64,000 bases of DNA from Methanolobus bombayensis (lineage in GTDB: Archaea; Halobacteriota; Methanosarcinia; Methanosarcinales; Methanosarcinaceae): assembly GCF_017873415.1 (NCBI RefSeq), contig NZ_JAGGKD010000002.1:1-64000 (forward strand), in the 5' to 3' direction. The notes under the pieces were generated by a model. That model was not told the origin of the DNA. It was given only the letters and a program-made list of their open reading frames with translations, and searched no databases. Shown one piece after another: positions 9,161-47,156 of this stretch (the stretch's first letter is position 1; each line of letters starts with the position of its first letter). A program made the position numbers and the translations under genes.

Positions 9161-9166
9161 GTAATG

Positions 9167-9340
9167 TCTATCCTGAGTATTCAGTTGATATATATCACTT
9201 GAACTTTTCAATTGAACTATATCATATGAACTTTGGATCATGTAGTTCACACATATTAAAACAGAAGAAATTTAATTTAGCAGAACAAGCAAGACAAACC
9301 TATAGATGTGTTTTGTTTGGACAAGGAATTTCAAACTAAT
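9167..9340 (+). repeat. Dispersed repeat family A, copy A1
   Basis: Shared blocks are CTGAGTATTCAGTTGATATA, CAATTGAACTATATCAT, GAACTTTGGATCATGTAGTT, GAAGAAA and the hallmark AGCAGAACAAGCAAGACAAA followed by CCTATAGATGTGTTTTG. It aligns nearly end to end with A2 at 39,963-40,130, roughly four bases in five matching by eye. Confidence 0.75.
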
Positions 9341-9568
9341 ATCTTATTTTTAAAAAAGTTGGTAATACTAGGTATTTGTTTATTTCCAACTTTGTTACAT
9401 ATTACCTTTATTCACCTTATATCACCTTAGCAATTTGTGGGGATATATACAACTAAAAATATGGCAGTTTGCAAACAAAGTTGTAGACAAAATTCGAATG
9501 GGATTTTCAATTCAATAAAATACGTTGAAAATTTCATTTATCTGAGTTAATTGAATGAACATTTTAAT

Positions 9569-9650
9569 TAGAAATTTACTGAAAAAACAGATTTGTATTT
9601 TTTTAATAAAGGGGGATAGCATATACAAAGAAGTCATTCGACTTATTGCA
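9569..9650. repeat. Inverted repeat arm (pairs with 13468-13550)
   Basis: About 82 bp, including GAAAAAACAGATTTGTAT and GATAGCATATACAAAGAAGT, recur in reverse complement at 13,468-13,550 with only a few mismatches. The two arms bracket the 723-aa gene. They could be terminal repeats of a decayed mobile unit or two inverted copies of a small dispersed element. Confidence 0.7.
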
Positions 9651-9928
9651 TATACTATCTGAGTTGTGGAGAGCATACAAAAGATTTCCCGATTGCATAC
9701 ACCCCATGAGAACCTGAACGAATCGCTGAACAGGGTTTGCTCAAAGAGAGCGTGCACTAAGCCAGAACAGCAAAAATACCCATGATTTTAGTGAATATTT
9801 TGGCGGCATCTGGGTGTGCCTGGATCTTACAAAAATATGATAGAGGTCGAATCGGTGCAGTGAATAGCGACTCTGTGTCTAACTCGACTTATTTGTTTTT
9901 TGCTTCATTGATCAAAGTTCTATGACCC

Positions 9929-10057
9929 ATGTTGCTACATGGTAGAGCTAAGAAAATGAAATGGAAAAATGACTATGCCATGATTCATCACGATGTCCGA
10001 AGCCTTATGGCTTATGTGAAAAATAATTCAGAATTTTTGTATTGGGGTTTCCAATGA
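9929..10057 (+). CDS. Possible small protein, 42 aa
   Basis: An ATG-initiated frame encodes a basic N-terminus (GRAKKMKWKNDYAMIHHD) and an aromatic C-terminus (NNSEFLYWGFQ). The codon make-up is protein-like, but there is no ribosome binding site and no recognised homologue. It may be the tail of a decayed gene. Confidence 0.25.
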   Translation: MLLHGRAKKMKWKNDYAMIHHDVRSLMAYVKNNSEFLYWGFQ

Positions 10058-10510
10058 CTAACTCTCATCTACGTATAGATATAGTTTTAATTCATATATA
10101 TAGATATCTCTAAATATAATTTATCAGGCATAAATAAAAGGGCAGTTTTTTCACCTAAACAAACAGTGTTTCCCGTCGAAAAAATCGGGTTGGGTGCGCA
10201 GGACTTTTCAATGTTTCATAATAAGTAAGTTGATAATATTTACATTTTTCCAACTTTTAGACCTGAACATCTGGCGTGAATTGGGTCGGTGCAGTGAACC
10301 TAACTTCTCGGAGTTTTCCAATATGTCCAAACCTAGTTAATACACATTTGATTTTGGTATTAGAATTTGGCATTGTTTTTCTTTGATAAGTTATCCTTTT
10401 TTGTAGAAGACTTGAATTTGTGATTGTAAGATCTCATGTTTGATACCTGTATAGATTTCAGAGGATTTTAGTTTCAACATTTCATAAAATACAGATAAGT
10501 TATATTTGTT

Positions 10511-10694
10511 GAACTATTCACAGAACGTCAAAGAGTAGATGATCCCTTCCCGACCGACAAGGAATTCATGAAATTTTGAACAGTTCCCTGCAGATTTTGA
10601 TGCGATTCTGCACATGGATGGTTCAGATTTCTTTAAAAAGTTACATGGGGTTAATATCTAGCCCAATGCCCACAGGGTAGAATCCATTTTTTAA
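10511..10694 (+). pseudogene. Degraded coding sequence
   Basis: Protein-like text runs ELFTERQRVDDPFPTDKEFM until a TGA. After a frame change it resumes as EQFPADFDAILHMDGSDFF, then KKLHGVNI, an amber codon, PNAHRVESIF and a TAA. Two lesions in 180 bp and no start codon indicate a relic. I do not recognise the family. Confidence 0.4.
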
Positions 10695-10824
10695 TTTGTA
10701 AGAGGCAACATTAAATATAGACTCTTTCGGATGTGTAACGAACCACAGAACAGAAGGACAGAGTCTCAACACGGATGGAACGAGACAGTCTATAGTAGAA
10801 TTCGTACCTAAAAAAGAAGAAAAA

Positions 10825-31500: not shown

Positions 31501-32333
31501 ATGATTCTATATTCACTTATCTTCGCCAGCGAGATGACATTTCCGATCCTAATTATACCTGCCAACTTCTTGAAAATTGGAGAATGAACCAAACTTTATC
31601 AAAATTCCCTGCTGAAACATTATATGGAGAGAACTACAAGCCATCCACTGAAGAAATAGCAATGCAGCAGTTATGTTTAATTCCTAAAAAGATAAACGAC
31701 CAGTTCGTAGATTGGGTACTGGATTCCGATTATCCATTGGTTGTTTGTATTCTTGAAGATGTTAGAGCAACAACAAAGAATGTTATTGAAGCAGAATTAG
31801 TTGCTAACATAGCTGTTCAATTAAGAGAATGTCTAATTCAAGATGATAATTGTCCGTATCCAGATACAGAACAAGGTGATTCCAAGTTCTGGAAAGATGG
31901 TTTGTTCATAGTGAGTCCACATCACGCACAGATCAGAGCGATCAAAGATAGTCTTTCCAAACTGAGAGAATGGCATTTCCAACCATTTGTTGACACTGTT
32001 GACAAGATGCAAGGACAGGAAGCGCAAGCAGTAATTGTAAGTTATGGTGTAAGTGATGCAGAAACTGCAATGAATGAAGCAAATTTCATCTATAGTTTAA
32101 ATAGACTGAATGTTTCAATAACAAGAGCTCGTGCAAAATCCATAGTGTTTTTATCTAGACAATTGTTAGAACCACCACTGGATATCTTGCAGAATACTAA
32201 TAGTGCAGATGGATTTAACCACATGTTGAATTTGGTAGATTTTTGCAGGAAAAATGGCCTGGAAAAAACATTTGAGATTGAGTCATTAGATAATGAAGAA
32301 AATGTTAGATTGACGGGAATGAAGGTCAGATAA
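28542..32333 (+). CDS. Dna2-like fused RecB-family nuclease and SF1B helicase
   Basis: A 1263-aa protein. The N-terminal 280 residues are a RecB/Cas4-type nuclease: a first Cys in YHDCDRYLRY (about 18), a catalytic Asp/E-x-K-like segment LQVIDIKANEKLKVSHRIQT (about 149-168) and a Cys triad YRCEFCEFYNYC (about 240-252), so an iron-sulfur cluster is likely. The C-terminal helicase has Walker A VWGPPGTGKTHFLSKA (about 815), Walker B ILVVDEASQMKF (about 933) and TVDKMQGQEAQAVIVSYG (about 1150), the SF1B/Dna2/Upf1 pattern. The 500-residue middle is unassigned. It should process DNA ends by combined unwinding and cutting. In this neighbourhood a defence role is more likely than housekeeping repair (inference). 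Confidence 0.85.
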   Translation: MTRYNLSPSMIARFFYHDCDRYLRYHATPRKEWSSNGIPLVNIAESPISKRLLHAGIKWEEEVVLSILKDDVILPDGPGAVHERKHTIESTLILLDNLSLGKAVFQPSLKTSPDFLQKYNLSPDLCIFKTSYPDLIRSVLNDKGKSVLQVIDIKANEKLKVSHRIQTALYTLMLQDLLEKNDLEHKVDFEQAGIWLYDQNEPDLFDQSLIIKVVEDFLTYRLPDILKSPIEDLSWHLYYRCEFCEFYNYCRSEATEKNLVSQIPSLSVGGREYLRNAPVPGGVNSLRELEILLNEQKSEEFLEKCGSLRNKRDVLRSTITAFNTGEVIFHGATSLSIPINEDISLFLTFQSDPISGDIYAAGFRRLKGKDIYGNTSRETFHIAKHPDECIKIQESFLKDLFDELKVLHDFNHNKEWGDQKSLQTYVFDTYEQRLFKKLLNDALKDSQTAPVALNLLFYFQDTSLSEEETHPSKEISHPLVVLVHEIQKVASLPVIFSYRLPEVLNAFPSSNFDYSIKPNSLFWFEHSNILRFDAISMAWDGGRNEAIDWVKDELSRRLLAYSSVLSGFREKAQEILVTWPQKFVIPFSDNFNYPELSRLIFITRYESYKTAIDLREMRTHLLKERIREGFSIPLEYVGLNIWRLILPIDSSLFEQYEHFSNLLVPEGEEGEKLQIAFDDYKYRSALDPPWGSKISFAMIEDKKVDPKDDKLKLLHLDVHYAAGQKKFETGDRMVFHPRFTDFTSIRLIRRLKELDKEIEDNEFIKLLRNPVVFSEPVNEIESTYNSAQKYANESDFTNSQLKAFNQMLKNRLTLVWGPPGTGKTHFLSKAILNYIKANRDDGKAVRIGVTAFTHAAIENLLVKIQEVSCDEELADEISIYKLGSARTGKGQELLKTQSESRIYDLMSHPYLIIGGTVYSFNKISKDMNSVDILVVDEASQMKFSELALSMSVFNDGKRLVLAGDDLQLPPIISGEYPESEDGLPGLHDSIFTYLRQRDDISDPNYTCQLLENWRMNQTLSKFPAETLYGENYKPSTEEIAMQQLCLIPKKINDQFVDWVLDSDYPLVVCILEDVRATTKNVIEAELVANIAVQLRECLIQDDNCPYPDTEQGDSKFWKDGLFIVSPHHAQIRAIKDSLSKLREWHFQPFVDTVDKMQGQEAQAVIVSYGVSDAETAMNEANFIYSLNRLNVSITRARAKSIVFLSRQLLEPPLDILQNTNSADGFNHMLNLVDFCRKNGLEKTFEIESLDNEENVRLTGMKVR

Positions 32334-32699
32334 TCATATTATGAATTTGTAGTAACTTCTTTTCCTTTGTTTTGATTGATCAATATCTAAACTTGGAATT
32401 CGTTAAAACATTTCTGCCTTACATAGGCGGAGATTATAGGATACATTCGTTTCAGTAATCGTATATTTGCAACTTTACTGTTGTTATATTGGTTCAAATT
32501 ATCTCTCTCTCGTAAGATGGATGGGGATATATACAACTCAAATTTTTGCAACGCTTTTGCAGATGTCAAACAAAAATCAAATGTTAGATTTCTAGGAAAC
32601 TGTATACGATTTATAATAGAGATAAAATCTTAATAGTTAATTTAAGATTTAATAATATATGAAAAAATTTATATGTGTAAAATTCTTTAGTATATACTT
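32334..32699. other. Intergenic region with repeat B2
   Basis: This 366-bp gap is mostly repeat B2 (32,416-32,552). AT-rich sequence with TTTATATGTG near 32,668 precedes the next gene and could hold its TATA box. Confidence 0.45.
32416..32552 (+). repeat. Dispersed repeat family B, copy B2
   Basis: Hairpin GCCTTACATAGGC (32,416-32,428) then GGAGATTATAGGATACATTC, CAGTAATCGTATATTTGCAA, CTTTACTG, GGTTCAAATTATCTCTCTCT and GGGGATATATACAACTCAAA. It is the closest match to B1. Confidence 0.75.
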
Positions 32700-34250
32700 A
32701 TGACAGAACTTGGAAATGAAATAAAATATCATGAAAATTTATTTACTAATGATCAAGCTTTAAAAGTTGGTAAAATCCATTTTTACTTATTAAAAGCTGA
32801 TACTGAAATGCAAAAAAGATGTTGGGTAGAAAATACGTCTAATGAAACTTGTTTTTCCACTCCAGAAACGACTACTTTTGGAGATGAAGTTGAATCTGAT
32901 GAAATTCACTGGTGGGTTTTTAAGAAAGAGCAACATCGAGATGAATTGATGAACAAGACAACAGAGGTCTTAATAAGTGCCCAAAAATTAAAAGAAAGCT
33001 CTGATAAATTAAAAAATGATTTTTATAACAAGACCTATCAAACTACAATAGACAAAATTATCCATTTTTTAGAAACTAATGCCAACGAAATTGAAAATTT
33101 ATACCAATACGTTTTATGGCTTAACAGTAAAGATATCTTGGCTCCAAGCATGTTATTTAATTATCGGGTATGGGGATCAACAAGACTTTCTGCTAGAACA
33201 CTACAAATAGATGCCAATGATAGTGATGAGGATGATGAAATAATAAAAATGTGTATTGAAATTGCTCTAGGATTATATTCGGAAGGACGATACAGCCTTT
33301 ATGATACGGCTATGGAACTTGATGAAAATATATACAATGAAAAGCATGAAAATTTGCATAATTCTCTTAATAAACTATGTGCATCTTTAGATGAACCTTA
33401 TTCTATTAATGAAATGCCTTATTCTAGTGAAGAATTACATGCACTTGTAAATGAAATATACAATTTAGTCGATCAATCATCTGATTCTAAAACAAATTTA
33501 CCTTATTCTATTGAGCAATTACATGCATATGTTGAAGATTTAAGTATGCCAAGAGAAGTATCTTATGAAGAATTAAGCGTTAAAACTTCTCATGCAATAT
33601 TGGATGAACTTGCTGAGTACTTTGAACAAATAAGAACATGCCTAAGAAACATCCAAATTGATATTAAGAAATATAATTCAAGTGATTTTTTGCTATATGA
33701 CTCATCTTTTTGGGAATATGCTATCCAAGAATCAATACAACCAGGAAGAATAGAAACTCCCTTATGGGATTTCAAACAAACACTTGAAATGTGGCATGTT
33801 GGAGAAAATATTAAAGAGGAAAAATGTGTTGATTTTTGCAAGCATATAGCTGCGTATGCAAATAATGAAGGGGGGGTATTAATTGTTGGAATCACTGATA
33901 GTGAACCAAGAGAATTTGTAAATATAGCAGATTTAGAAAACAAAGTACAATCAATAAAATCGACAATTCAAAGGTACATTGACTATGACAATGATTTTAC
34001 CCACATACAACAGATTATCATTGAAAATGGAAATGCAACAGAAAGTTGTTTAATCATTGCAATTGCACAAACTAAGAATGTGGTGGGAGTTAAATGCAAT
34101 GATGTCAGTTATTCTTATCCTTTTAGGACACAAACTGGTAAGGCATACAAAAGCTTTAATGAAATTCAATCTGATAAAAGGTCTAAAAGGGTAAATCATG
34201 ACAACTTTTATTTTGTCTCTAAAATTAACCGTATGCTTTTATCATCCTGA
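32700..34250 (+). CDS. Schlafen AlbA_2-domain protein
   Basis: A 516-aa protein. The C-terminal third holds the AlbA_2 (Schlafen-type, ATP- or nucleic-acid-binding) domain: LWDFKQTLEMWHV (about 354-366), CKHIAAYANNEGGVLIVGIT (about 378-398) and YPFRTQTGKAYKSFNEI near the end. The N-terminal 330 residues are acidic, helical and contain three diverged repeats of a (M/L)PYS-(x)-EELHA type (about 240-285). AlbA_2 proteins occur as transcription regulators and in antiviral contexts, sometimes as RNases. It sits between repeats B2 and B3, alone on its transcript as far as I can tell. Confidence 0.75.
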   Translation: MTELGNEIKYHENLFTNDQALKVGKIHFYLLKADTEMQKRCWVENTSNETCFSTPETTTFGDEVESDEIHWWVFKKEQHRDELMNKTTEVLISAQKLKESSDKLKNDFYNKTYQTTIDKIIHFLETNANEIENLYQYVLWLNSKDILAPSMLFNYRVWGSTRLSARTLQIDANDSDEDDEIIKMCIEIALGLYSEGRYSLYDTAMELDENIYNEKHENLHNSLNKLCASLDEPYSINEMPYSSEELHALVNEIYNLVDQSSDSKTNLPYSIEQLHAYVEDLSMPREVSYEELSVKTSHAILDELAEYFEQIRTCLRNIQIDIKKYNSSDFLLYDSSFWEYAIQESIQPGRIETPLWDFKQTLEMWHVGENIKEEKCVDFCKHIAAYANNEGGVLIVGITDSEPREFVNIADLENKVQSIKSTIQRYIDYDNDFTHIQQIIIENGNATESCLIIAIAQTKNVVGVKCNDVSYSYPFRTQTGKAYKSFNEIQSDKRSKRVNHDNFYFVSKINRMLLSS

Positions 34251-34647
34251 GGATTGTTTTTTAATTTCGATATGAGCTGTTACCAACAATTTAACAGCTC
34301 CATATCCATAATGTAATCAATGAACAGTATTTATACGCCTGAATCGGGTGGGGTCTATAGGATACTTTCATCTCATAATTCAGTAATTGTGTATTTGTAA
34401 CTTTACGGGATAATATGTTTGTTCAAATTATTCTCCTCTCAATAAGTTATGGGGCTGATGGTTGGTTTTATCTATACTAAATAATTAGTACCTGAGCCAA
34501 AGAAAGAAGTAGGGGTGAATTTTTATATTGAAATAACAATCTAACTTCTTACATAATTTGGATGGATTAGATTATAATAAAAGGGTATTATTACTGAAGA
34601 ATGTGATATTTTAGTTGCTTCTTCTTCTTTCAATAACGGTGATAAAG
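34251..34647. other. Intergenic region with repeat B3
   Basis: About 400 bp holding repeat B3 (34,337-34,455). Upstream of the next operon a ribosome binding site GGTGA lies at 34,638-34,642. Confidence 0.4.
34337..34455 (+). repeat. Dispersed repeat family B, copy B3
   Basis: Hairpin GCCTGAATCGGGT, GGGGTCTATAGGATACTTTC, CAGTAATTGTGTATTTGTAA, CTTTACGG, GTTCAAATTATTCTCCTCTC and AATAAGTTATGGGG. The 3' TATATACAACTC block is lost. Confidence 0.7.
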
Positions 34648-35988
34648 ATGGCAAAATCTGTTTTTGAAGGTGAATGGCTGTTTACATCGCCTTCGAACTC
34701 TTCTATTATCAAACGTGGGGATGTTTTAGGCTGGCAAAAGATCGCAAATGATTTTTCAGATATGCTCGCCCCTGATCTTAATAATGGAACTCATGATGCA
34801 CGTTGGATCTCGATATTGTCATGGTGTCTTGTCGTTTCAAATACAATTCCGCTTAGGCAGGATTTTGATCGGTCAGAACTGTACAAGTGGTTAAAGCCTC
34901 TTGAAGTATTTTGGATAAAAGCTACTCTTGAAAAAATAGCTTCTGACAATAAATACGGAAACTACAGTGATTATCAGCTTCCAGGTCGCAGGAAAATAAA
35001 AGAGTGGTCTGGAAAATATAATGATCTCAAAGAACTACTTGATGACTTGGATAATTTTCGTTATTCAGGGATATATGGTACATACAGGACTATTTTAAAA
35101 AATGTACCTGGATTCACAGAAGATTGTGATGGTTGGACACCAGATATTGTAGCTACTGACCTTGCAAATCAATATAATATCCCATATCAAAAAAATATCT
35201 CTGCTAGAGGTAATCCTCAACCAAATGCATATTGGCTTGGTAAAACATCTATTGAAAATAGTGATGAGAAGTCATTATGGGACTTAATACGGAGTCAAAG
35301 AATTAGCAGGCTGCCAACTTCAAAAAAGAGTGTGAGTAATCTTACAAAAAAGGAAGAACAGATTCTTATTAGTGCTCTTTTTTCGAAAGATGGGAATGGT
35401 AAAAGACGTAGAATTGTAGCAAATGCCATCGAAAAATCAAATGCTCAATCTTATGCGGATCTCTGCAATGATGTCTCTAAAAAGTTACAAGATATTCCAG
35501 ATGCATACCTGCTATGCCCATTTTCAAGGCTTTCTGATTCAGCAATCGATCTTTTGAATAATATCTGGAATTGTATAAAGGACAAACCACGAGTAACTCT
35601 TTCTGAAGTCCATATTACTGGAGATTGTCGACAGCAATTAAAAAATTCAGTGGATTTATGGATTGAAGCCAAAAATGACTCTTTAGCCAACAACTTTAGA
35701 ATAATTGATCAATTTGTTTCTATGATTTCAGATATTGATAACATGAAAGATGCAGATCTTGTCAGGTGTATTGTGAACTATCACTCAGAAAACTGTAGAG
35801 GTCGTAAATGGATGCAAATAAACAATGAGTACGTTGAACCTTTGTTATTTTCAAATACTACAGAAGCCTCTTATTATCGTTTCCGTCTTTGGCAATTGAG
35901 TAGGTTGGCATTACAATGTGGTTTTATACATAATATTCCAGGTATCCTTTCACAAGAATCATTTTATATGGAGGATTATGATGAATAA
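34648..35988 (+). CDS. DUF6361-like protein of a PLD/helicase defence-like operon
   Basis: A 446-aa protein from the ATG at 34,648, supported by GGTGA five bases upstream (a TTG at 34,615 would add 11 residues). The N-terminal part, WQKIANDFSDMLAPDLNNGT followed by DARWISILSWCLVVS, resembles the start of DUF6361-type proteins (a sequence-style judgement). No catalytic motif is visible; the rest is alpha-helical. Its stop overlaps the start of the PLD gene, and the helicase follows one base later, so three genes are tightly coupled. It may supply target recognition or regulation for the PLD nuclease and helicase. Confidence 0.55.
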   Translation: MAKSVFEGEWLFTSPSNSSIIKRGDVLGWQKIANDFSDMLAPDLNNGTHDARWISILSWCLVVSNTIPLRQDFDRSELYKWLKPLEVFWIKATLEKIASDNKYGNYSDYQLPGRRKIKEWSGKYNDLKELLDDLDNFRYSGIYGTYRTILKNVPGFTEDCDGWTPDIVATDLANQYNIPYQKNISARGNPQPNAYWLGKTSIENSDEKSLWDLIRSQRISRLPTSKKSVSNLTKKEEQILISALFSKDGNGKRRRIVANAIEKSNAQSYADLCNDVSKKLQDIPDAYLLCPFSRLSDSAIDLLNNIWNCIKDKPRVTLSEVHITGDCRQQLKNSVDLWIEAKNDSLANNFRIIDQFVSMISDIDNMKDADLVRCIVNYHSENCRGRKWMQINNEYVEPLLFSNTTEASYYRFRLWQLSRLALQCGFIHNIPGILSQESFYMEDYDE

Positions 35989-37810
35989 GAATCCCCTTTT
36001 TACATCATTATATCCTATTTCTGAAGGACCATCAAAAATTCCACTTAAAATCCTAATGACCACATTTGATAGTCCAGATCCCAATTTTCTGTTGAAGGAT
36101 TTACTTCCAAAACTTTTGAAACTACAAAAAAATGGAATTGATGAAGAAACGTTTCCATATCATGTGTATGATGCTCTGGAGCGTACTGACGCTGAGATTA
36201 TTTCATCTGTGAGTTCATTTTCTAAACGACCCGATGATTACATTTTTAGAAAAATAAATCTTTGTAAAGTGGGGTGTAATAAAGATGAAGTTCAACATTC
36301 TAAACTCTGCCTAATCTATAGCAAAGATGAAGAGAATGAATTCTTGGATATTGCAATCTCATCTGCAAATTTGTCTAGATCTGCGTTTGAAGATCAGCTG
36401 CAAGCTGCATGGAAGTATTCTGTAAAACTCTCTTCTAAAAATACATATTCTCGCTCTTGGGGGGTCCTTCCTAGGTTTCTAAGCAAATTGAGTGAATCAT
36501 GCGGTCAAAATGAAAAATTATGTGAGTGCTTTATAAAATTGCTAAAAAGGGCAAAACCTCCTGAAAATGTGATTTTTCTGGCATCAGTGCCAGGCACATA
36601 TGATAATAATGAGTATTGGGGTAGTAACGGATTAAAAAAAATCAATTACCGTTCAAACAATGATACAAGGATTACAATCTTTAGTCCATTCGTTGGTTCT
36701 TGGGATAAAAAACAGTTGAAGAATTGGAAAGAGCGTCTGAACAAAAAAGAAGAAAATCTGGAATTAATCTGGATAAATAAAAATCATAAGTGGGCAGAAA
36801 AAGAAGTTTGGAAAATGCCAGAAAATACTTTTAGAAATTTAAGTAATATTTGTAAATTTAAAGAACTAGAAATCTCAGGTCAGAATGGATATCTTCATTG
36901 TGATCAAGAGCCAAATGATAACCGCTGGAGCCATGCAAAATTGTATTTTGTTGGAAATGAAAATGATAACTGGCTAATACTAACTTCTGCGAATTTCACA
37001 CAAGCTGCATGGGGGAAAATTACACCTAAACAAATCAGAATTAACAATTTTGAATTAGGTGTAGCCTTAAAAAACGTGGATGGATGGCCTCCAGAAACGG
37101 TTGATATGAAGAATGATTGTTATTATACAGAAGATGAAGGTTATGACATTCCAGATGATGAATATGTATGGTCGGAAGCAACATGGGATGGTCAAAAATT
37201 AGAAGTTTTGGTTCGTTCAGATATAAAACCCAATAACAAAGTAATAATTCAAATTGCCAGTTTCGATAGAAAGGAAAGGAAACGGACTTCGACCTGGGAA
37301 AATAAAGGAAAGCATTGGATTTGGTCAAAGAATTGGTCTGAGAAGCAAGGTGTTCCACATATTGTTACTATTAATAATATTGGAAAAGATTACCTAATCC
37401 CTATTCTTAATCTGAGAGATAGTAAAGATATGATAAAGGAAAGTATTCCTGAACTAGGTTTTTCAGATGAAGAAGAGAAAAATATCTATGATGACATAGT
37501 ATACAAAAGGTATTCCTCTTCTAATTATGTTGAAGTTGTAGAAAAATATCATAGAACCGTTTCATACAATAAAACAAAGGAATCCAGGGATTCCTCCAAT
37601 TATGATTATGGAGTGTTATTATCAAGAGATATGTTTAAGCTTGTTGATAATTGGAATGAAAAACGAAAAAAGGATGAGTATTACAGAGTCGATGGATATA
37701 AGTTGTCGAATTACTTTGCAAGATTGGCAGAAAACCAACAAAATAAGATTACTAGAATTGCAGCAGAATTGTGCAAATCTGAGATTGATCTAATTCTTTC
37801 TGAGGGATAA
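35981..37810 (+). CDS. Tdp1-like phospholipase D superfamily protein
   Basis: A 609-aa protein starting at the ATG with GGAGG six bases upstream, overlapping the previous stop. Two HKD half-sites are intact in tyrosyl-DNA-phosphodiesterase style: VQHSKLCLIYS with AISSANLSRSAFE (about 103-135) and WSHAKLYFVGN with ILTSANFTQAAWG (about 315-345). The SAN(L/F)...AAWG ending is the Tdp1 hallmark. Expected chemistry is phosphodiester or 3'-adduct cleavage through a His intermediate. A C-terminal 250-residue region is unassigned. With the SF2 helicase it makes a restriction-like nuclease-translocase pair. Confidence 0.8.
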   Translation: MNKNPLFTSLYPISEGPSKIPLKILMTTFDSPDPNFLLKDLLPKLLKLQKNGIDEETFPYHVYDALERTDAEIISSVSSFSKRPDDYIFRKINLCKVGCNKDEVQHSKLCLIYSKDEENEFLDIAISSANLSRSAFEDQLQAAWKYSVKLSSKNTYSRSWGVLPRFLSKLSESCGQNEKLCECFIKLLKRAKPPENVIFLASVPGTYDNNEYWGSNGLKKINYRSNNDTRITIFSPFVGSWDKKQLKNWKERLNKKEENLELIWINKNHKWAEKEVWKMPENTFRNLSNICKFKELEISGQNGYLHCDQEPNDNRWSHAKLYFVGNENDNWLILTSANFTQAAWGKITPKQIRINNFELGVALKNVDGWPPETVDMKNDCYYTEDEGYDIPDDEYVWSEATWDGQKLEVLVRSDIKPNNKVIIQIASFDRKERKRTSTWENKGKHWIWSKNWSEKQGVPHIVTINNIGKDYLIPILNLRDSKDMIKESIPELGFSDEEEKNIYDDIVYKRYSSSNYVEVVEKYHRTVSYNKTKESRDSSNYDYGVLLSRDMFKLVDNWNEKRKKDEYYRVDGYKLSNYFARLAENQQNKITRIAAELCKSEIDLILSEG

Positions 37811-37811
37811 A

Positions 37812-39887
37812 ATGAGTAATTCGGATTGTTTTGATGGTAGATCCTGGCGATTTTTGAATGATTCTCAAAAATATGTTGATAAATGGAATTCTACTGAATA
37901 TAAGAAGTTGGAATCAGAATCTACCAAAAGGCAGTTTTTCACGGCTTCAGAAATTCTTAATCGATTAAACCAACAACAAGGTGTTATACTTGCTGATGAT
38001 GTAGGACTAGGTAAAACTACAGTTGCTGCCCTTGTTGCATGGGTATATGCTGGAAAAGGAAAAAGTGTCCGAATACTTGCACCTAATGAAGTTATGAAAC
38101 GTAAGTGGTTGGAAGAGATCGATAACCATAAAGATGTAATAGATGGGTGTGCAAAATCTTTAGATTTTCGACATGTCAAGGTTCATAAAGAAAAATTAGA
38201 TAAAGCAACGTTTTCGGGAATATATGTATCTACGCATAACAATATTATTATGAATTCAGAGAGTCTAAAATGTAATTTATTGATTATCGATGAAGCTCAC
38301 CGTGCAAAAAGTTCAGAAAGTGTGTTTGCGCAAAAATTAAAGAAGAATATAAAAAATAACCAAAAAGTTCTATTTTTAACTGCAACACCATTCAGTATAA
38401 ACTTATCAGAGTTAGAAAATATATTGAATTTAATAGGAGCAAAGGATATTGACACCTCATTTATAGAGAACATTGAGAAATATTGGGCTAATAAAAACAA
38501 AGATCTTGATGTTGATATGGTTGCTACAGATAATTTCTTGAGAAAATACATAATTAGACATGGAGTTTCTGACTTGCGAAAAGAGTCGTATGTATTTGGG
38601 AATCTTGATGAAGATTATAATATGGGGAATAATGAATCCGCTGATGATAATTATATTAAAATGCTATTGCAGGCTGATAGGTTACTGAGGTTATGCAAAA
38701 ATTTGAATATTTCGGATCATCACAATACGAACGATCCACGTTATCATGTTGGTCTGGGGATGTTAAAGGATAATCTAAAAAAGATTAGAGATTTCTGCGA
38801 TGAAAATGGAAAACAAAATTTATTGATTGAAAAATATTGCCATGATATAGAAAAAAACGAATGGATGAAAAGCATCCATCCCAAAGCATTCCATGTTGCA
38901 AACGAAATAAATGAGATAGTAAAACAAAATGAAAAAGTCCTTGTTTTTTGTGAACATCATGCCACAGCAGCTGAGATTACTACAGCTATTGTAGAGAAGC
39001 TGAATCCAAAAATGTATACTGAAGGTGAGTTTAATCCAGATTGGAAAAAAGCGTGGGATAATATATTCACAAACGCAGATAAAAGGGGTAAAATACCTTC
39101 TTCATCAATACCATACAAAGAAGCGTTTATAAGGTGGATGTCAAGTCAGTACATTATTGATCAAATTGAAAAGTGGATTGGGTATCCTACCAATAATGAA
39201 AAGGAAATATGTAAGTGTCTAAAAAATACATATGTAAAAAATCATCAGGATAAGTATCAGCTTAGAATCGCTGATGCTGCATTAAATCTCTTTAAAGACC
39301 TTACTCATAAAGATTCAAAGTCTACCATAGCAATTTTGAGGTCACTAGCTCAGAAAGGTAGTTTTGGTTCCAAGATGCCAAATACTCAGATAGTTTCGGC
39401 AATCGAAAAAAATGGTATACCTGATCACTTAAAAGAAGGATTAGATGAATATGTTTACGAAAAAGATAACTCGGATCTAATCACGAAAATTTTTAATAGC
39501 CCATTCGGCCCTGATGTTTTGGTTGTTACAGATAAATATTCAGAAGGTATCGATTTACATGGATTTTGTCGATATTTAATACACTATGAGCTAAACACCA
39601 GTCCTATAAAAGTTATGCAAAGAAATGGTCGTATAAGAAGAGTCAACAGTTGGGCAGCGAAGGTCAATGAACCAATATGTATAGGATATCCCGCATTTAT
39701 TGGTACAAGGGACGAAAAGTTGGTTAAGATAATGGCACAACGTATCGAACTTTTTGATACTATGTTAGGAGGTGTCGGATCTAAAATAAACCTTGATACG
39801 GATGAGTTACTTTGTGATGACGAAATGAATGCTTTAAAGAACAAAAATATAAAAAACAAAATGAATTTTGCAATATATGGTGATTGA
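37812..39887 (+). CDS. SNF2-like SF2 helicase/translocase
   Basis: A 691-aa helicase with motif I ADDVGLGKTTVAALVAW (about 59), motif II LLIIDEAHRAKSSE (about 155), motif III LFLTATPFSINLSELE, motif V LVVTDKYSEGIDLHGF (about 570) and motif VI VMQRNGRIRRVN (about 600). It reads as a translocase that moves along double-stranded DNA. It starts one base after the PLD gene's stop, with GAGGGA nine bases upstream. The DUF6361-like/PLD/helicase order and tight spacing indicate one complex or pathway, likely anti-phage or anti-plasmid (inference). Confidence 0.85.
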   Translation: MSNSDCFDGRSWRFLNDSQKYVDKWNSTEYKKLESESTKRQFFTASEILNRLNQQQGVILADDVGLGKTTVAALVAWVYAGKGKSVRILAPNEVMKRKWLEEIDNHKDVIDGCAKSLDFRHVKVHKEKLDKATFSGIYVSTHNNIIMNSESLKCNLLIIDEAHRAKSSESVFAQKLKKNIKNNQKVLFLTATPFSINLSELENILNLIGAKDIDTSFIENIEKYWANKNKDLDVDMVATDNFLRKYIIRHGVSDLRKESYVFGNLDEDYNMGNNESADDNYIKMLLQADRLLRLCKNLNISDHHNTNDPRYHVGLGMLKDNLKKIRDFCDENGKQNLLIEKYCHDIEKNEWMKSIHPKAFHVANEINEIVKQNEKVLVFCEHHATAAEITTAIVEKLNPKMYTEGEFNPDWKKAWDNIFTNADKRGKIPSSSIPYKEAFIRWMSSQYIIDQIEKWIGYPTNNEKEICKCLKNTYVKNHQDKYQLRIADAALNLFKDLTHKDSKSTIAILRSLAQKGSFGSKMPNTQIVSAIEKNGIPDHLKEGLDEYVYEKDNSDLITKIFNSPFGPDVLVVTDKYSEGIDLHGFCRYLIHYELNTSPIKVMQRNGRIRRVNSWAAKVNEPICIGYPAFIGTRDEKLVKIMAQRIELFDTMLGGVGSKINLDTDELLCDDEMNALKNKNIKNKMNFAIYGD

Positions 39888-39962: not shown

Positions 39963-40130
39963 ATGTATATATCCTGAATACTCAGTCGATATATTTCACT
40001 TGAACTTTCAATTGGATTATATCATCTGAACTTTGGGTCGTGTAGTTCAACGCAATAAAATGGAAGAAACTAAGTTTAGCAGAACTGGCAAGATAAATCT
40101 ATAGATATGTTTTGTTCTTTGGATATAATC
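39963..40130 (+). repeat. Dispersed repeat family A, copy A2
   Basis: Nearly full-length match to A1: CTGAATACTCAGTCGATATA, CAATTGGATTATATCATCTG, AACTTTGGGTCGTGTAGTTC, ATGGAAGAAACTAAGTTTAG, CAGAACTGGCAAGATAAATC and TATAGATATGTTTTGTTCTT. It occupies the space between two converging genes, so it cannot be a promoter for either. Confidence 0.75.
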
Positions 40131-40136
40131 AATAAT

Positions 40137-43100
40137 TTAATACAATACATCAATAATATTATTTACCTGTTCAATAATTATTTTTCGATCTTTCATTATT
40201 TCATTCATTGTTTTAGATGTATAATGTGCTGAACCATTTCTATAGTCTGAAACCGTTTTGCATGATTTGAATACTATATTTTTGTTTTTGTGAAATCTAG
40301 CCAAAAAATAATTATTTGCCTCTTCTACTATTGGATTAAAGCTGTAATTTTTACAATCATCAAAGATATACGGCCAGGACCCTAAAGTTATAGTCCTATC
40401 TTTTTTTCCAAGAATATTTTTCAAGCTAGCAGGTAAGTTCCTGAAATAATCATCGGGAATGGGGAATCCATGTTTTTTATGAATTTTTTTCCTCAATTTA
40501 ATAGAAACTTTTTTGTGAAGAAGGCTTTCTACTCCTTTTCCATAACTTACCAGAGCCATTGTAAAATCAAATTCATCCTCATTAACTGACTTAGGAATAT
40601 CCAACACTAGACGTTCTGCACTCATAAAGAATTTTTTAATATTGTCATCTTTTATTTTATTAAAATTAATTGTGTCCTTCTTTAAACGATTGTATTTTTC
40701 CTTAAGCTTTTCAAGACCTGGATGATCAGCTTCTATTTCCATTGCTTTATCGATTGACTTTTCAGCATTGTTGAAGTCCAATAGCTGCTCATAATTTAAG
40801 CCCAAATTTTTCCACAAATCGGGGTATTGAGAATCAATCTTCAGTGCATCTTTTAGATATTTTATAGACTTATCGTGCATGCCTAAATCAAAATACATAT
40901 GAGCAGTGTATTCATTTGCTGAAATCTCCAGCTGTTTATCCGCACTTAGCTGTCCAATTGACATTTCAGAAAGAAGGAGTGCTTCCTCCACTAATCCTTT
41001 GACAAATAAGACCTTACATGCAATGCAAATCATGTCATGATGGATGCTTGGTTGGGACAATTTGGCACTATGGTCAAAAATATTATCTAAAACTTCTTTA
41101 AGTACATTAGGTTTTTTAATGGGAATTAAGTTATCAATGCACAACTTAATAGCAGGAGGGAGAATCTCAATCGCTTCAATTTCTTCTTCTGGCGTAAATT
41201 GGTGTTCAATATCATCAACTTCTTGCTTACAATTGTCTAAATGACTAAGAGTCTTGATGAGAGGCACAATTGCTCTTGAAATATTTTCAAGACCTTTCTG
41301 ATTGTTGTCTTGCTGGAAATCAATAAAAGCTAAATAAAGATACGATTGAGTGACAATTTTTTTATCAGATGATAATATCAATTTTACAAAATCATTCTTT
41401 GCTTCTGGAACATTACTTTGATTATATTTAGAAATTGCAAGATTTAATTTTAGCTGCTCATTTTCTTTAATCTTTAATGCCATTTTCAGATATTCGGATT
41501 CACGTTCAAATTGGAATGAATTTCTCAGAGATTCTGCAATTGCCACAAGTCTATACTGCTCTTTGTTTTGTTCTTCTTCACTCAATTTTTTATCATCTAG
41601 TTTTTCTGCAGTCCATGAAAAGTGCTTATCAATTTGGGTTATTCGTTCATCCGCTTTATCTACTAGATCATCTCTTTGATTTTCTCCTAAAGCAATGATA
41701 TCATGTAAACATTCATATTCCCGATCAAACTGTTCAGTTCTTCTATATGTGCAAGCAAGGTTCCACATCAAGCTTAATTTTTCAATTCTGTTAGCCCTTT
41801 CAATTCTTTCCCTAGCATTGTTAATGTGATTTTCAGCATCATTATTTCCAAGCAGAAAATCCATTTCTGCCATTCTCAAAAGTGATAACGTAGTTACAAT
41901 ACGGGGATTTTCGTATTGTTCAAAAGTTTTTCTACCTCCCTTTCTTTTCCTCTTATTGACTCTAAGTGTTTTAGATGCAAAATCGAATAGCTCTTTATAT
42001 AGAGAATATGCTTTTTCAAATTCCATTTTATCTCTATTGATGTCTCCTAATTTGCTTAGATATCCTGCTTTTCTATAGTCATCTTCAGTATTTTCACTTA
42101 AAAATGAATATGTAGTTTCAGCAACATCTAAGAATTTATTGAGATACATTCTATCTGCAAATAACTCTAAAGACAGAATACTTCTATTTTTTTGATTGAA
42201 AGTAGCAAGATAATCAGTTAAGTTCTGGTTGTCTAATGTATATGTACCATTCAATAGTTGTTGCTTTTCATTTAAAGATAGAGAATTGAACCATATTACA
42301 GAAGTGATTGAAAACGCATCCGCTAAAAACTTGATATATTTTAATGAAATTTCTTCTTCAGAAAACTCATTAACTATTCCGATGTCATAATCATTCAATA
42401 TTTTTGTCAATTTTTCTTCAAAACCTAAAGTCAAAATATTGATTGCTAATTGCCATTCTGCATTTGCTGGATTTGAACTGTAATAATCAGAGTTTGTAAT
42501 ATTTTCCGATAAATATTTTTGAAATTCAAAGTTATCTTTTTTTTCAGTATCTGAATCCCAGTAAAACTCTCCCTTCCTTGAAAAATATTCAAGATCGAAA
42601 TGGCTTGTTTGATATTCCTGAATTACATCACGAATAGCATTTGCTGCTTGATCATCTTTTGTTTCAAGAGCAATTTCATATCGTTGGTTGAAATATTCAA
42701 GACTTTCATTTAGGCTTCTCAGGTGCATTTGGAAATATTCTTCAAGAAAATCCTCTTGTTTAATATTAAAAAGGCCATCTCCACGTTCTTCAAAGACAAT
42801 AGGAAGGCGAAAAGTATGTTTCAAATCCTTATCCACGATTGATTTTTTCTTTGCCTGGCTATTAATCGATAAATAAGGATTGAATATTTTGTTTACATCA
42901 TAATATGAACCATCCAACAATAATTTCTGGATATAAAGAGCAGTATTTTGGATAGCATTTGCATCTTTTTTTATCATATTGTAAATATGTAAAGCAAATC
43001 CAGGATCTCTTCCTCTTCTAAGAAGAAAAATGTTTTGAAGAATACGATGTTTGCCAATCTCTTTGCGGGTAGCATCCTCTGCTTCATTGATTATTTTGTA

Positions 43101-43196
43101 CAAATGCTTTCTCGAATCGATATTATAGGATTCCCATAAAAAATACTCAACTACATTTTTCTCAAATTGCATTTCCAACATTCCCTGTAAATACAT
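40137..43196 (-). CDS. TPR-repeat protein with C-terminal HEPN domain
   Basis: A 1019-aa cytosolic protein. Most of it is alpha-solenoid, with TPR-like pairs throughout and clear ones at about 760-830 (AHMYFDLGMHDKSIKYLKDA; DLWKNLGLNYEQLLDFNNAE). The last 140 residues look like a HEPN fold: FTMALVSYGKGVESLLHKKV as first helix and VSDYRNGSAHYTSKTMNEIM as last, where R-NGSA-H is the R-x4-6-H motif of HEPN RNases (about 986-991). It lies 62 bp after the nucleotide kinase gene on the same strand, so it may be the third gene of the viperin operon. A plausible model is a solenoid sensor that triggers RNA cleavage (inference). Confidence 0.7.
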   Translation of the reverse strand: MYLQGMLEMQFEKNVVEYFLWESYNIDSRKHLYKIINEAEDATRKEIGKHRILQNIFLLRRGRDPGFALHIYNMIKKDANAIQNTALYIQKLLLDGSYYDVNKIFNPYLSINSQAKKKSIVDKDLKHTFRLPIVFEERGDGLFNIKQEDFLEEYFQMHLRSLNESLEYFNQRYEIALETKDDQAANAIRDVIQEYQTSHFDLEYFSRKGEFYWDSDTEKKDNFEFQKYLSENITNSDYYSSNPANAEWQLAINILTLGFEEKLTKILNDYDIGIVNEFSEEEISLKYIKFLADAFSITSVIWFNSLSLNEKQQLLNGTYTLDNQNLTDYLATFNQKNRSILSLELFADRMYLNKFLDVAETTYSFLSENTEDDYRKAGYLSKLGDINRDKMEFEKAYSLYKELFDFASKTLRVNKRKRKGGRKTFEQYENPRIVTTLSLLRMAEMDFLLGNNDAENHINNARERIERANRIEKLSLMWNLACTYRRTEQFDREYECLHDIIALGENQRDDLVDKADERITQIDKHFSWTAEKLDDKKLSEEEQNKEQYRLVAIAESLRNSFQFERESEYLKMALKIKENEQLKLNLAISKYNQSNVPEAKNDFVKLILSSDKKIVTQSYLYLAFIDFQQDNNQKGLENISRAIVPLIKTLSHLDNCKQEVDDIEHQFTPEEEIEAIEILPPAIKLCIDNLIPIKKPNVLKEVLDNIFDHSAKLSQPSIHHDMICIACKVLFVKGLVEEALLLSEMSIGQLSADKQLEISANEYTAHMYFDLGMHDKSIKYLKDALKIDSQYPDLWKNLGLNYEQLLDFNNAEKSIDKAMEIEADHPGLEKLKEKYNRLKKDTINFNKIKDDNIKKFFMSAERLVLDIPKSVNEDEFDFTMALVSYGKGVESLLHKKVSIKLRKKIHKKHGFPIPDDYFRNLPASLKNILGKKDRTITLGSWPYIFDDCKNYSFNPIVEEANNYFLARFHKNKNIVFKSCKTVSDYRNGSAHYTSKTMNEIMKDRKIIIEQVNNIIDVLY

Positions 43197-43258
43197 ATAA
43201 TAAATACTTTCTAATTATTTAATTATTCTTGTTTAAAAACAAACAACTGATTTAATTA

Positions 43259-43834
43259 TCATTGGAGAACATTTTTCAATTTTTCAGTAGTATCTACGCC
43301 TATCTCAACTACATGAAGCCTTATTCCATACTTATTTGAAATCTCTGCAGCCTTCTGTCTTTCAAAATCAAGCTCCTTGCAGATGACATCCAGATTGGTA
43401 ATCCTTTCCTTTTCAGTATCCCTTTGTCTGTGATCCAGAATGCGCTCAGGATAAGAATCCAGCAAAATAATGTCTGTATAAAAATCAAAATCTTTCTCAG
43501 TAAAAATCGTATCTATTGCATGTGTCTTAAGATTGAAAACTGTAAGATGTGAATCTACAACCAAATCTTTTGATGTATCCTTTTGTATGGCCTGTAGCAG
43601 ACTGTTGAGCTTTATTCTTAAGGCATACTTTTCCGCTTCAGGAAGATATTCAAAATGCTTGTAGTTCTCTCCCATCATTTCGTAAAGCAGGTCAGATCCA
43701 GAAATGAATTTTATATCTGGAACACTTGAACGTATTCGATTAATTACTGTACTCTTTCCCACACCTCTGACTCCTGTAAAACAGAATCTTCTATGGGGTA
43801 GGTCAGTTTTTGTATTACCAGGCATAGACACCAT
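43259..43834 (-). CDS. Viperin-associated P-loop nucleotide kinase
   Basis: A 191-aa P-loop protein with Walker A CFTGVRGVGKSTVINRI (about 18-34), a DLVVDSHLTVF strand (about 95-105) and an RILDHRQRDTEKER lid-like basic segment (about 136-149), the layout of small nucleoside or nucleotide kinases. It overlaps the viperin gene by 20 bp. Prokaryotic viperins are often encoded beside nucleotide kinases that phosphorylate precursors or products to the triphosphate level (family knowledge). Start either at the ATG at 43,834 or at an ATG nine bases later preceded by GGTG. Confidence 0.8.
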   Translation of the reverse strand: MVSMPGNTKTDLPHRRFCFTGVRGVGKSTVINRIRSSVPDIKFISGSDLLYEMMGENYKHFEYLPEAEKYALRIKLNSLLQAIQKDTSKDLVVDSHLTVFNLKTHAIDTIFTEKDFDFYTDIILLDSYPERILDHRQRDTEKERITNLDVICKELDFERQKAAEISNKYGIRLHVVEIGVDTTEKLKNVLQ

Positions 43835-44660
43835 CCCTTTCTATGTATTTCTTAGAATCGATTATTGATGCAGGGTTTAAGAGGAATTCATCAAGTTCAA
43901 ATGGAGTATATTTTCCATCCTTATTGGACAATACTTTCCCTGCAGGGTCAAGAATCAAATACGAACCAATCATATCATCGTTCGATTCAAAAGTAGGTTT
44001 TTTGTTGTTCTGTAGGCGGATATCCTGATGATGTATCTTGAAAGATTCAAATTGTTGATCAGTTATGGATAAATCATTAACATATGAATCATTCTGGCCT
44101 TTGATATGGAGCATCTGGAAAATCTTCCATCTATGTGGATTCATTGATTCAATCAGATGGTGCATATCTTCTTTGTAGGTTAGTCTTGTGACTGTTGTAT
44201 TCACTTTCAGCTTCATGTCATAATCGTGGACGAGATCTGCAACTTCCAGAGCATGAGTTACATGTTTTCCCCTGCCTCTCCCAAGTTCAGCTTCAACCTG
44301 ATTATCAATAGAGTCTACAGAAATACCAATCCAATCAGTATATCTGGAAATATTTTCAATATTATCTTTGTTAATAAAGGAGCCATTTGTGACAATAGAT
44401 GTAACAAATCCCATGTTATGTGCCATCGATAGGATTTTGTCAAAATTAGGATGGAGAAAAGGCTCACCACCAACAAAATTGATTTTCTGTATGTCGAGTT
44501 GATCATTCTTAGTGGAGTGCAATTTATCTAAGATCTCATGTACAATCTTTAAGTCTCTGATCTCAGCGTTGAGATTTTGAACATAACAGAATTTACAGGA
44601 ATAATTGCATTTTCCAGTTATGTGCCAATTTACGGATTTTATCTTTTCTTCTATCATCAA
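43815..44660 (-). CDS. Prokaryotic viperin (radical SAM antiviral enzyme)
   Basis: A 281-aa radical SAM protein of viperin type. It begins SVNWHITGKCNYSCKFCYVQ, giving the CxxxCxxC cluster ligands Cys18, Cys22 and Cys25; then KINFVGGEPFLHPNFDKILS, SVDSIDNQVEAELGRGRG, HRWKIFQMLHIKGQND and a C-terminal ESNDDMIGSYLILDPAGKVL, all strongly viperin-like and of normal pVip length. Viperins dehydrate a nucleoside triphosphate to a 3'-deoxy-3',4'-didehydro chain terminator. It heads an operon with a nucleotide kinase and possibly the TPR-HEPN gene. A TATA-like TTAAATAT about 24 bases upstream of the ATG at 44,657 suggests a leaderless mRNA. Confidence 0.93.
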   Translation of the reverse strand: MMIEEKIKSVNWHITGKCNYSCKFCYVQNLNAEIRDLKIVHEILDKLHSTKNDQLDIQKINFVGGEPFLHPNFDKILSMAHNMGFVTSIVTNGSFINKDNIENISRYTDWIGISVDSIDNQVEAELGRGRGKHVTHALEVADLVHDYDMKLKVNTTVTRLTYKEDMHHLIESMNPHRWKIFQMLHIKGQNDSYVNDLSITDQQFESFKIHHQDIRLQNNKKPTFESNDDMIGSYLILDPAGKVLSNKDGKYTPFELDEFLLNPASIIDSKKYIERDGVYAW

Positions 44661-44763
44661 ACTGTAGTATAAAGAATATTTAATATCAATTTAATTTAGA
44701 TAAAAACTATTATGTAATAGATTAATTTATTCATTAATAGATTTATTTTTCAGAGGGTCTACT
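44661..44763. promoter_or_regulatory. Divergent promoter, viperin operon / CARF regulator
   Basis: A 103-bp AT-rich spacer serves both directions. Minus strand: TTAAATAT just upstream of viperin. Plus strand: AT-rich TATA-like sequence near 44,715-44,750 and GAGGGT before the CARF gene. It is short enough that one bound regulator could control both sides. Confidence 0.55.
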
Positions 44764-45507
44764 ATGGAACAAGAAAGAAGAGTTCACATAATAACTGCTG
44801 GAGAAAGTATCCATGAAATATTTCCAACCTCGAGCAAATATATATCGTACGCTACTAAATTGTACGTAATTGTAGAGGAAGATATTTTTAAAGATACTGA
44901 TGATGAGCAAAAACAGAAGACAAGAGTGGCAATACGCAGTTCAATAGAAAAACTGAAAGAAATTGCAGGCCCATTTGTAGAAGATGGAATTGAGGTAATC
45001 CCGATTATTGATGACACTCTAGATTACATAAGGGATGCTGTTGTTTCGATATATGAAAAAGATAAGATTGCTAAGTATTACTTTAATGTCTCTAGCGGAA
45101 CCACGGGTCTTTCAATTGGACTTTTTATGATGGCGATGTGGATAAAGGCTATACCATATCATATTGGTAAAAAAGGCGATCCTAGATTTATACCAATTCC
45201 ACAGGTTCATATGGGTAATTTTAAGAAAAATCCCAATCGTGTGAAAATCCTTGAAATTCTAGACAAATCTAATGGTAAACATCTTTCAAGAAAGCAATTA
45301 AAAGGATTATTGGATAAAGAGTACATTCCTATTAATGATTCAGGTAAGGAAAAAAGATCACTTTCGTACGGTGGTTTTACTTCATTAATTGAAAGTTTGA
45401 TTGAATGGAAACTGGTTGGCAAGAGATCGTTTGGTGATAGTAGTAGGGATATTGAATATTATCTTACAGACGATGGGGCATTTACATTGCGGTTTATGAA
45501 GATTTGA
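44764..45507 (+). CDS. CARF-like (DUF6293/Csa3-type) wHTH regulator
   Basis: A 247-aa protein. The N-terminal Rossmann-like domain (about 5-150) begins RRVHIITAGESIHEIFPTSS and has the ligand-loop signature FNVSSGTTGLSIGLFMMAMW (about 107-126), as in CARF/HFX_2341 (DUF6293) and Csa3 proteins. The C-terminal 90 residues are a winged helix (VKILEILDKSNGKHLSRKQL, then SLIESLIEWKLVGKRSFG). CARF domains sense cyclic oligoadenylates or related nucleotides and switch the attached HTH. Divergent placement 103 bp from viperin suggests that it gates the viperin operon by a nucleotide signal (inference). No CRISPR or Cas10 is in the window. Confidence 0.8.
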   Translation: MEQERRVHIITAGESIHEIFPTSSKYISYATKLYVIVEEDIFKDTDDEQKQKTRVAIRSSIEKLKEIAGPFVEDGIEVIPIIDDTLDYIRDAVVSIYEKDKIAKYYFNVSSGTTGLSIGLFMMAMWIKAIPYHIGKKGDPRFIPIPQVHMGNFKKNPNRVKILEILDKSNGKHLSRKQLKGLLDKEYIPINDSGKEKRSLSYGGFTSLIESLIEWKLVGKRSFGDSSRDIEYYLTDDGAFTLRFMKI

Positions 45508-46204: not shown

Positions 46205-47044
46205 TCATACACCACTCTCAGACTCGATATACTGAGATTGAGTAAAAGCCTCAGTATGTGTGGAATTTGTTTCTAGTGAGTCAAATCGCCATATAATCTT
46301 TTTATATGCTTCTTTGGCATGTTTTACCTTATTCAAATAATGAGCATTACCAACCGTAGCAGGAGCGCGACCTTGTATAAAGTCTGCTGTGCCCTCATTT
46401 ACACCTTCAGACACCATCATATTAAGATGCCACTTACGAATAGTCTTTGCAGAAACACGTCCACGTCGTATCTTCTTTAAATAATGGTCATAGCCATAAA
46501 TCTGATTGATGCTTTTCAGTGTTGGAACAAATGATGCAGGGAAAAAGACATGGAATGTCCTTTTAGTTCCACTTGAAAATGATGATGTTGGGTAATGAGC
46601 AATGTCCCCATCTACAACAATGTTCCTTTCATCAAAATTCTTCAACATCTGATGAATATGTGTAAGTCTATTGCCTGAGTACAAAAGTAATTGATATACA
46701 GGCTTTAAGTCTTCAGGATAGCTTTTGTAGGCATTTCTGATTTCATCATCCGAGACATAGATCTCGGTGACACCAGACTTTTTAATCTTAACATATCGTC
46801 TCCACTTGTGAATACTGTATCCTGCCACATCATCGATATCTTCATCTTCACAGTAGTTAAAAAGGTTCCGCAATCCACGTTCTTCTTTGTCTTTCAATGT
46901 AAGTGTACGGAAATCTTGTGGTCTTGTAATAGTTGTTGCTTCAAAGAACCGTGTTAAAGCATTATAATAATCTCTTTTTGTAACTTTTGATACATCTTTT
47001 GCATCTAACCATTGTTTGAACAAAACGTGAGCAAGCGACCACAA
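46205..47044 (-). CDS. Archaeal tyrosine integrase, probable int(C) part
   Basis: 279 aa from a TTG at 47,044. Catalytic features of archaeal phage integrases are visible: Arg126 in LYSGNRLTHIHQM, TIRKWHLN (about 201-208), QGRAPATVGNAHYLNKV with Arg226, His235 and the candidate nucleophile Tyr236. It should recombine att sites to integrate or excise the element. The frame has no ATG, but continues open from 47,044 up to a TAA at 47,183-47,185, straight through the tRNA fragment. This is what the C-terminal part of an SSV-type integrase split by integration looks like. If so, the TTG start is only nominal and the N-terminal part lies at the element's other end, outside the window. Confidence 0.8.
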   Translation of the reverse strand: MWSLAHVLFKQWLDAKDVSKVTKRDYYNALTRFFEATTITRPQDFRTLTLKDKEERGLRNLFNYCEDEDIDDVAGYSIHKWRRYVKIKKSGVTEIYVSDDEIRNAYKSYPEDLKPVYQLLLYSGNRLTHIHQMLKNFDERNIVVDGDIAHYPTSSFSSGTKRTFHVFFPASFVPTLKSINQIYGYDHYLKKIRRGRVSAKTIRKWHLNMMVSEGVNEGTADFIQGRAPATVGNAHYLNKVKHAKEAYKKIIWRFDSLETNSTHTEAFTQSQYIESESGV

Positions 47045-47102
47045 ATCGTTCAGTGAGTAACACGCGCTCTCTGCACGCTGATTTCTGGGTAAAATCGCTA
47101 TC

Positions 47103-47156
47103 TGACGAGCCTTTACACGGCGGGGGTCATGAGTTCGAATCTCATCGGGCCCACCA
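47103..47156 (+). other. Attachment site: 3' fragment of tRNA-Val(TAC)
   Basis: Anticodon stem-loop remainder GCC-TTTACAC-GGC (anticodon TAC at 47,114-47,116), variable region, perfect T-arm ATGAG-TTCGAAT-CTCAT (47,129-47,145), acceptor 3' strand CGGGCCC, discriminator A and CCA (to 47,156). The 5' half of a tRNA is missing: no GGGCCCG lies upstream. Archaeal integrases recombine at tRNA 3' halves, leaving the intact gene at one end and a fragment at the other. The orientation places the element to the left of this point. Confidence 0.85.

Follow-up and report, generated by a model that had tools for sequence, protein, structure and literature searches.

The 64-kb window of the Methanolobus bombayensis genome analyzed here (by "window" we mean the whole stretch of DNA, not the locus within it) carries a viperin locus in which genes for a prokaryotic viperin (pVip), a nucleotide kinase, a TPR protein with a C-terminal HEPN-like domain and a CARF-wHTH regulator lie side by side. 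Viperin is an antiviral enzyme conserved in animals and microbes, and its product is a chain-terminating 3'-deoxy-3',4'-didehydro (ddh) nucleotide. An earlier note on this DNA had placed the viperin, kinase and TPR genes on the minus strand, with the CARF-wHTH gene diverging from them across 103 bp, and we found the open reading frames exactly there (Table 1). The kinase and viperin genes overlap by 20 bp, and 62 bp separate the kinase gene from the TPR gene.

Table 1. Features of the viperin locus and its flank in the window (aa, amino acids).
Feature	Position	Strand	Basis or remark
TPR protein with C-terminal HEPN-like domain, 1019 aa	40137-43196	-	PADLOC TPR and Pfam TPR matches; predicted sensor and RNase arm
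HEPN-like domain of the TPR protein, residues 826-1019	40140-40721	-	AlphaFold2 model and structure alignment
R986-N-G-S-A-H991 motif (R-x4-H, polar residue after R)	40224-40241	-	conserved in relatives
VakA-type P-loop nucleotide kinase, adenylate-kinase-like, 191 aa	43259-43834	-	PADLOC VakA, AAA_17, PDB adenylate kinase
Prokaryotic viperin, radical SAM, 281 aa	43815-44660	-	NF038283; likely ATG start 44657
Candidate operator, three TAGATW iterons	44697-44743	no strand	starts 44697, 44718, 44738; consensus picked post hoc
CARF-wHTH regulator, Csa3-like, 247 aa	44764-45507	+	PADLOC Csa3 and structure model
Archaeal phage-type integrase beside the module	46205-47044	-	PF16795 5.4e-40
3' half of tRNA-Val(TAC) gene, probable attachment site	47109-47156	+	matches intact tRNA-Val of locus L049

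The window viperin scored 270.7 bits with the pVip model NF038283, above the cut-off of 180, matched the PADLOC pVip model over nearly its full length (2.7e-78) and retrieved solved viperin-like enzymes in a search of the PDB (2.4e-40). Its CxxxCxxC motif (C18-x3-C22-x2-C25) is intact, with all three cysteines invariant in 25 relatives. The kinase was recognized by Pfam AAA_17 (5e-13) and PADLOC VakA (3.8e-22) and, in a search with profile A4, matched adenylate kinase in the PDB (3.9e-6). The name VakA occurs in no viperin paper of the literature searched.

The relatives of these proteins were surveyed in 238 genomes of the same class and in a 393-genome sample of the phylum. The TPR family occupies 11 places in 10 of the 238 class genomes, and at every one of them (11/11) it has both a viperin gene and a CARF gene as neighbours. 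In these class genomes, full-length Csa3-type CARF matches diverge from viperin in 14 of 15 cases, genome G111 being the exception. The module, whole or in large part, was found in 22 genomes of 13 genera; the linkage that the earlier note had proposed as one module is thus recurrent. The window genome itself holds a second locus (C2:302552-308912) consisting of CARF, viperin, kinase, a second viperin and TPR. Outside the class, linked loci were found in the phylum sample (L082, L084-L088, L090, L092 and L093) and on a Methanoculleus sp. UBA303 contig (L071); the CARF gene is co-directional with viperin in L084 and L085, and no CARF gene was identified at L088. Every strong phylum match to the TPR protein is viperin-linked except one gene fragment (L089), and the matches outside viperin loci (L083, L091, L094-L097), which are weak and partial, were left out of the member counts. 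Plasmids yielded no relative of the CARF protein, and viral contigs yielded distant viperin relatives only, at most 32% identical.

The TPR protein matched the PADLOC TPR model (PDLC02907 family; 2e-58, model positions 1-863 of 864) and is encoded adjacent to pVip. Pfam has no family for its C-terminal domain, and sequence searches of the PDB gave no convincing HEPN or CARF relative, so that a fold search was needed. With the AlphaFold2 model of the domain (pLDDT 83.6, pTM 0.82), the top rows of the VIA-align comparison were mostly HEPN proteins: 2hsb (Z 8.0), 1ufb (7.9), RnlA 4i8o (7.8), 2q00 (7.7), HepT 6m6u (7.4) and Csm6 6tug (6.9). A HEPN-like fold of the TPR C-terminus is plausible on the strength of this model. 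Active HEPN members are defined by an Rx4-6H motif with N, D or H after the arginine (PMC3710099), and RNGSAH of the window protein has this form, that of an active RNase-type HEPN. R986, N987 and H991 are invariant across the 11 aligned class TPR proteins, and R-x4-H, with N or H following the arginine, is present in 22/22 distinct viperin-linked TPR proteins (genomes occurring twice were counted once). Among unrelated open reading frames of the same loci, R[NDH]xxxH was found in the last 60 residues of 4 out of 205 (2%); the motif is therefore not a matter of chance.

A TPR-HEPN protein that binds a ligand or serves as a scaffold, with no RNase activity, seems an unlikely reading of these data. 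Catalysis has been lost in some HEPN families (PMC3710099) and the fold evidence here is moderate, but the arginine, the polar residue next to it and the histidine are kept across relatives that are 21-25% identical, which is the pattern of an active HEPN family. We infer instead that the TPR-HEPN protein cleaves RNA through its HEPN domain.

The regulator matched PADLOC Csa3 over the full model (4.6e-77). Its structure model (pLDDT 88.3) aligned with Csa3 (2wte) at full length with a Z of 15.7 over 202 residues, and Foldseek placed it with 6wxq at 2.2e-8. Of the two folds that structure prediction was meant to check, the CARF fold (a Rossmann-like CARF domain plus a wHTH) is clear in the model, whereas the HEPN-like fold is plausible only. 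The scanned neighbours are viperin, kinase, TPR, helicase, integrase and TrmB genes; unlike a CRISPR-associated Csa3, the window regulator has no cas gene among them.

In the 103-bp divergent region, the TAGATW elements are 21 and 20 bp apart, and the same spacing of 20-21 bp recurs in most related loci. In a shuffle test, which was post hoc and by itself significant in few loci, 0 of 300 shuffles reached the score of the window. Because the consensus was chosen by eye, we regard the iterons as a candidate operator only; the CARF-wHTH protein is probably bound at these 20-bp-spaced TAGAT elements.

The genes of the module evolve at different rates. Identity to the window proteins is 48-72% for the kinase, 33-61% for CARF and 21-25% for the TPR protein (one close relative aside), and the TPR protein itself shows 32% mean identity in its HEPN region versus about 21% elsewhere. 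The TPR protein of L050 is 88% identical to that of the window, and for the same pair of loci the values are 43% for viperin and 47% for CARF; at the DNA level, window positions 40118-43492 and L050 positions 8015-11386 are about 90% identical, a stretch that covers the TPR gene and the 3' end of the kinase gene. The kinase frame of L050 is broken. The reverse arrangement was found in L054, whose viperin is 84% identical to that of the window and whose TPR protein is about 23% identical. Judged by these sequence comparisons, the TPR-HEPN gene is a swapped cassette, replaced between module backgrounds, and its TPR part may be a sensor under diversifying pressure.

The exchange of TPR sequence against viperin would also suit a TPR-HEPN gene that is an independent defence or toxin gene and only accompanies viperin, as would the distant unlinked TPR homologues with partial matches and the arrangement in genome G095 (L048 745-3774), where, as in no other locus seen, the TPR gene and the viperin-kinase pair converge. 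However, all 11 class places and all strong phylum matches apart from the L089 fragment are viperin-linked. The viperin/kinase and TPR genes are close or overlapping in most loci, and in L053, L084, L085 and L093 a few bases are shared between the TPR gene and the viperin gene before it. We consider it improbable that the TPR-HEPN gene is only a fellow traveller.

What the CARF switch might sense was also considered. In one version, which takes up the cyclic oligoadenylate (cOA) signal of the earlier note, the regulator would sense cOA from a type III CRISPR Cas10 of the same cell and turn the viperin operon on. The closest fold is that of Csa3, which was solved with cyclic tetra-adenylate (cA4), Csa3b is a promoter regulator that binds an analogue of cOA (PMC7480081), and Cas10 palm matches are present in 5 of the 22 module-carrying genomes. 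Yet searches of the window genome, which is 99.98% complete, found no Cas10 palm domain, Csm1-type Cas10, SMODS cyclase or mCpol. Among the carriers, 17 of 22 have no palm match, three have SMODS cyclases and none has mCpol above the cut-off. The same search method found Cas1 in 21 of the 22, so the missing Cas10 does not reflect a general failure of the search, and cOA made by Cas10 is therefore unlikely as the general signal. Furthermore, most CARF relatives carry N-x-[ST]-[GS]-G-[TG]-K, whereas the window protein reads NVSSGTT, a threonine standing where the GTK motif has its lysine. Altogether the Cas10 version of the signal appears very unlikely, and the CARF ligand in the window genome is probably something other than Cas10 cOA; a divergent cyclic oligonucleotide synthase may have escaped the searches.

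The regulator might sense the viperin product itself, or a short RNA derived from that product, and the module would then be self-controlled. CARF and viperin are paired in nearly all loci, including those of genomes in which no cyclic oligonucleotide synthase was detected, and the CARF pockets of solved relatives bind nucleotides. We know of no CARF protein that binds ddh-nucleotides, which counts against such self-control, and we regard it as doubtful. More broadly, and tentatively, one may suppose that a Cas10-free CARF regulator senses a viperin-made or other non-CRISPR nucleotide and ties the enzyme that makes chain terminators to a TPR-HEPN RNase that can be swapped. If true, CARF would have a ligand outside Cas10 signalling, and the chemistry of viperin would for the first time be connected with immunity by RNA cleavage.

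Given the gene content, its recurrence, the CARF fold, the conserved HEPN motif and the finding of no Cas10 homologue in the window genome, our preferred reading, to which we assign a probability of roughly 60%, is that the locus is an archaeal TPR-associated viperin defence module with a chain-terminator arm, a TPR-HEPN RNase arm and a nucleotide-gated CARF switch. The viperin would make the ddh-nucleotide chain terminator, with the kinase either supplying its nucleoside triphosphate substrate or phosphorylating its product. The fast-evolving TPR part would sense a virus-related trigger, and the C-terminal HEPN domain would then cleave RNA as the second arm. The divergent Csa3-like CARF-wHTH protein would act as a nucleotide-gated switch on the shared promoter. 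The chain-terminator step rests on established viperin biochemistry; the other steps, among them HEPN catalysis, triggering, operator binding and the direction of regulation, for which the earlier note proposed a lifting of repression, we infer from domains, linkage and evolution. The combination of viperin, kinase, RNase and regulator named in the earlier note is the right description of the locus, with the RNase activity of the HEPN domain as a prediction.

Several observations weigh against this reading. Foldseek alone gave no significant match for the HEPN-like domain (E > 1), and a Z of about 8 is modest, within the range of common helical bundles; for these reasons the HEPN assignment rests on motif and fold together. 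The lysine missing from the GTK motif of the window CARF is a further such point. Finally, VakA is absent from all linked loci outside the class, which together with the convergent TPR gene of G095 means that one operon is not universal. The core of the module therefore consists of CARF, viperin and TPR; the kinase joins it in loci of the class to which the window belongs.

Some variation was seen around the effector genes of related loci. A second, diverged viperin paralogue with its CxxxCxxC motif intact lies directly before the TPR gene in six loci (L045 8832-9590, L046 6335-7084, L047 8268-9092, L054 8774-9526, L053 9908-10729 and L052 8947-9861) and is often C-terminally shortened. At a Methanoperedens CARF-viperin locus (L057 5703-7445), a DUF5677 protein occupies the place of TPR-HEPN and is a possible alternative effector. 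Two CARF-less viperins (L059 6645-8318 and L062 6632-8257) overlap a similar-looking protein of 541-557 aa, which gave no Pfam or PADLOC match and is possibly a further viperin partner. As a separate observation, several Cas1 matches of the window genome (G000; C1:425740-426573, C1:434853-435686 and C2:190172-190999) lie in frames that, at about 400 aa, exceed the usual length of cas1, and may be casposases.

The flank of the module carries signs of mobility. Integrase homologues also stand beside the module loci L049 and L064: L049 has an intact tRNA-Val (5533-5609), the module and the integrase homologue together, and L064 has tRNA-Val, the integrase and a truncated CARF gene only. No complete tRNA gene was found in the 64-kb window. 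As tRNA-Val(TAC) also lies beside L049, L064 and L093, and tRNA-Val(CAC) beside L092, tRNA-Val looks like an insertion hot spot at module loci (window positions 46205-47156). No direct repeats that cleanly bound the element were found; the L049 element is flanked by an 8-base match alone. Adjoining the module, window positions 28542-39887 hold a defence-like run that fits no complete system cleanly: a large helicase-like protein, a Schlafen AlbA_2 protein, an unknown open reading frame, a PLD/Tyr-DNA phosphodiesterase (weakly ZacB/DrmC-like) and a SNF2 helicase (DrmD/ZacC-like).

The module already has its place among catalogued defence systems, as one confined to archaea, and the view of the earlier note, which knew of no described system containing the four parts together, is not supported. 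PADLOC-DB v2.0.0 has neighbouring models (PDLC02903-02911) for pVip, TPR, Csa3 and VakA, all four of which match nearly full length. In a survey of 7747 genomes, which cites Bernheim 2021, viperin associated with a TPR protein was the sole archaea-exclusive type of defence system (PMC12988326); the window, too, comes from an archaeal host. The published mention found covers viperin and TPR only, and the neighbouring accession numbers, read with the wording of the survey, suggest that the Csa3 and VakA partners are also curated, in one system rule. In the papers searched, we found no mention of a HEPN domain, a mechanistic CARF link, iterons, Cas10 independence or a second viperin paralogue for this system, and in the literature searched, which did not cover Bernheim 2021 or Shomar 2024, no paper links prokaryotic viperin mechanistically with HEPN or CARF.

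What appears to be new is the HEPN assignment, the three-gene core with an optional kinase, the rapid evolution of the TPR-HEPN gene and its exchange between modules, the candidate 20-bp iterons and the linkage to the integrase and tRNA-Val. The sign that the CARF switch works independently of the signal usually made by CRISPR systems is apparently undescribed as well. With a conserved HEPN RNase motif and a CARF switch usually found where Cas10 is not, what had been an entry in a catalogue becomes a two-arm immune system that can be put to the test, and the question arises of what a CARF domain senses outside CRISPR.

In its protein set (pVip, TPR, Csa3-like CARF and VakA kinase), the module is the same as the archaeal TPR-associated viperin system of PADLOC and PMC12988326. 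With the Csa3 regulators of CRISPR-Cas (2wte, 6wxq), the window CARF shares the two-domain fold along its full length; in contrast to them, it is about 15% identical in sequence, linked to viperin instead of cas genes, and carried mostly by genomes in which no Cas10 was found. The likeness to RNase LS/RnlA and other HEPN RNases lies in a predicted HEPN-like bundle with R-x4-H, which aligned with RnlA over 128 residues, whereas the window protein has an N-terminal TPR array in place of the RnlA N-terminal domains, and no RnlB-like partner was identified. With pVip-VakA pairs and pVip-kinase fusions it shares a viperin with an adjacent VakA, to which the module adds TPR-HEPN and CARF, the kinase being optional.

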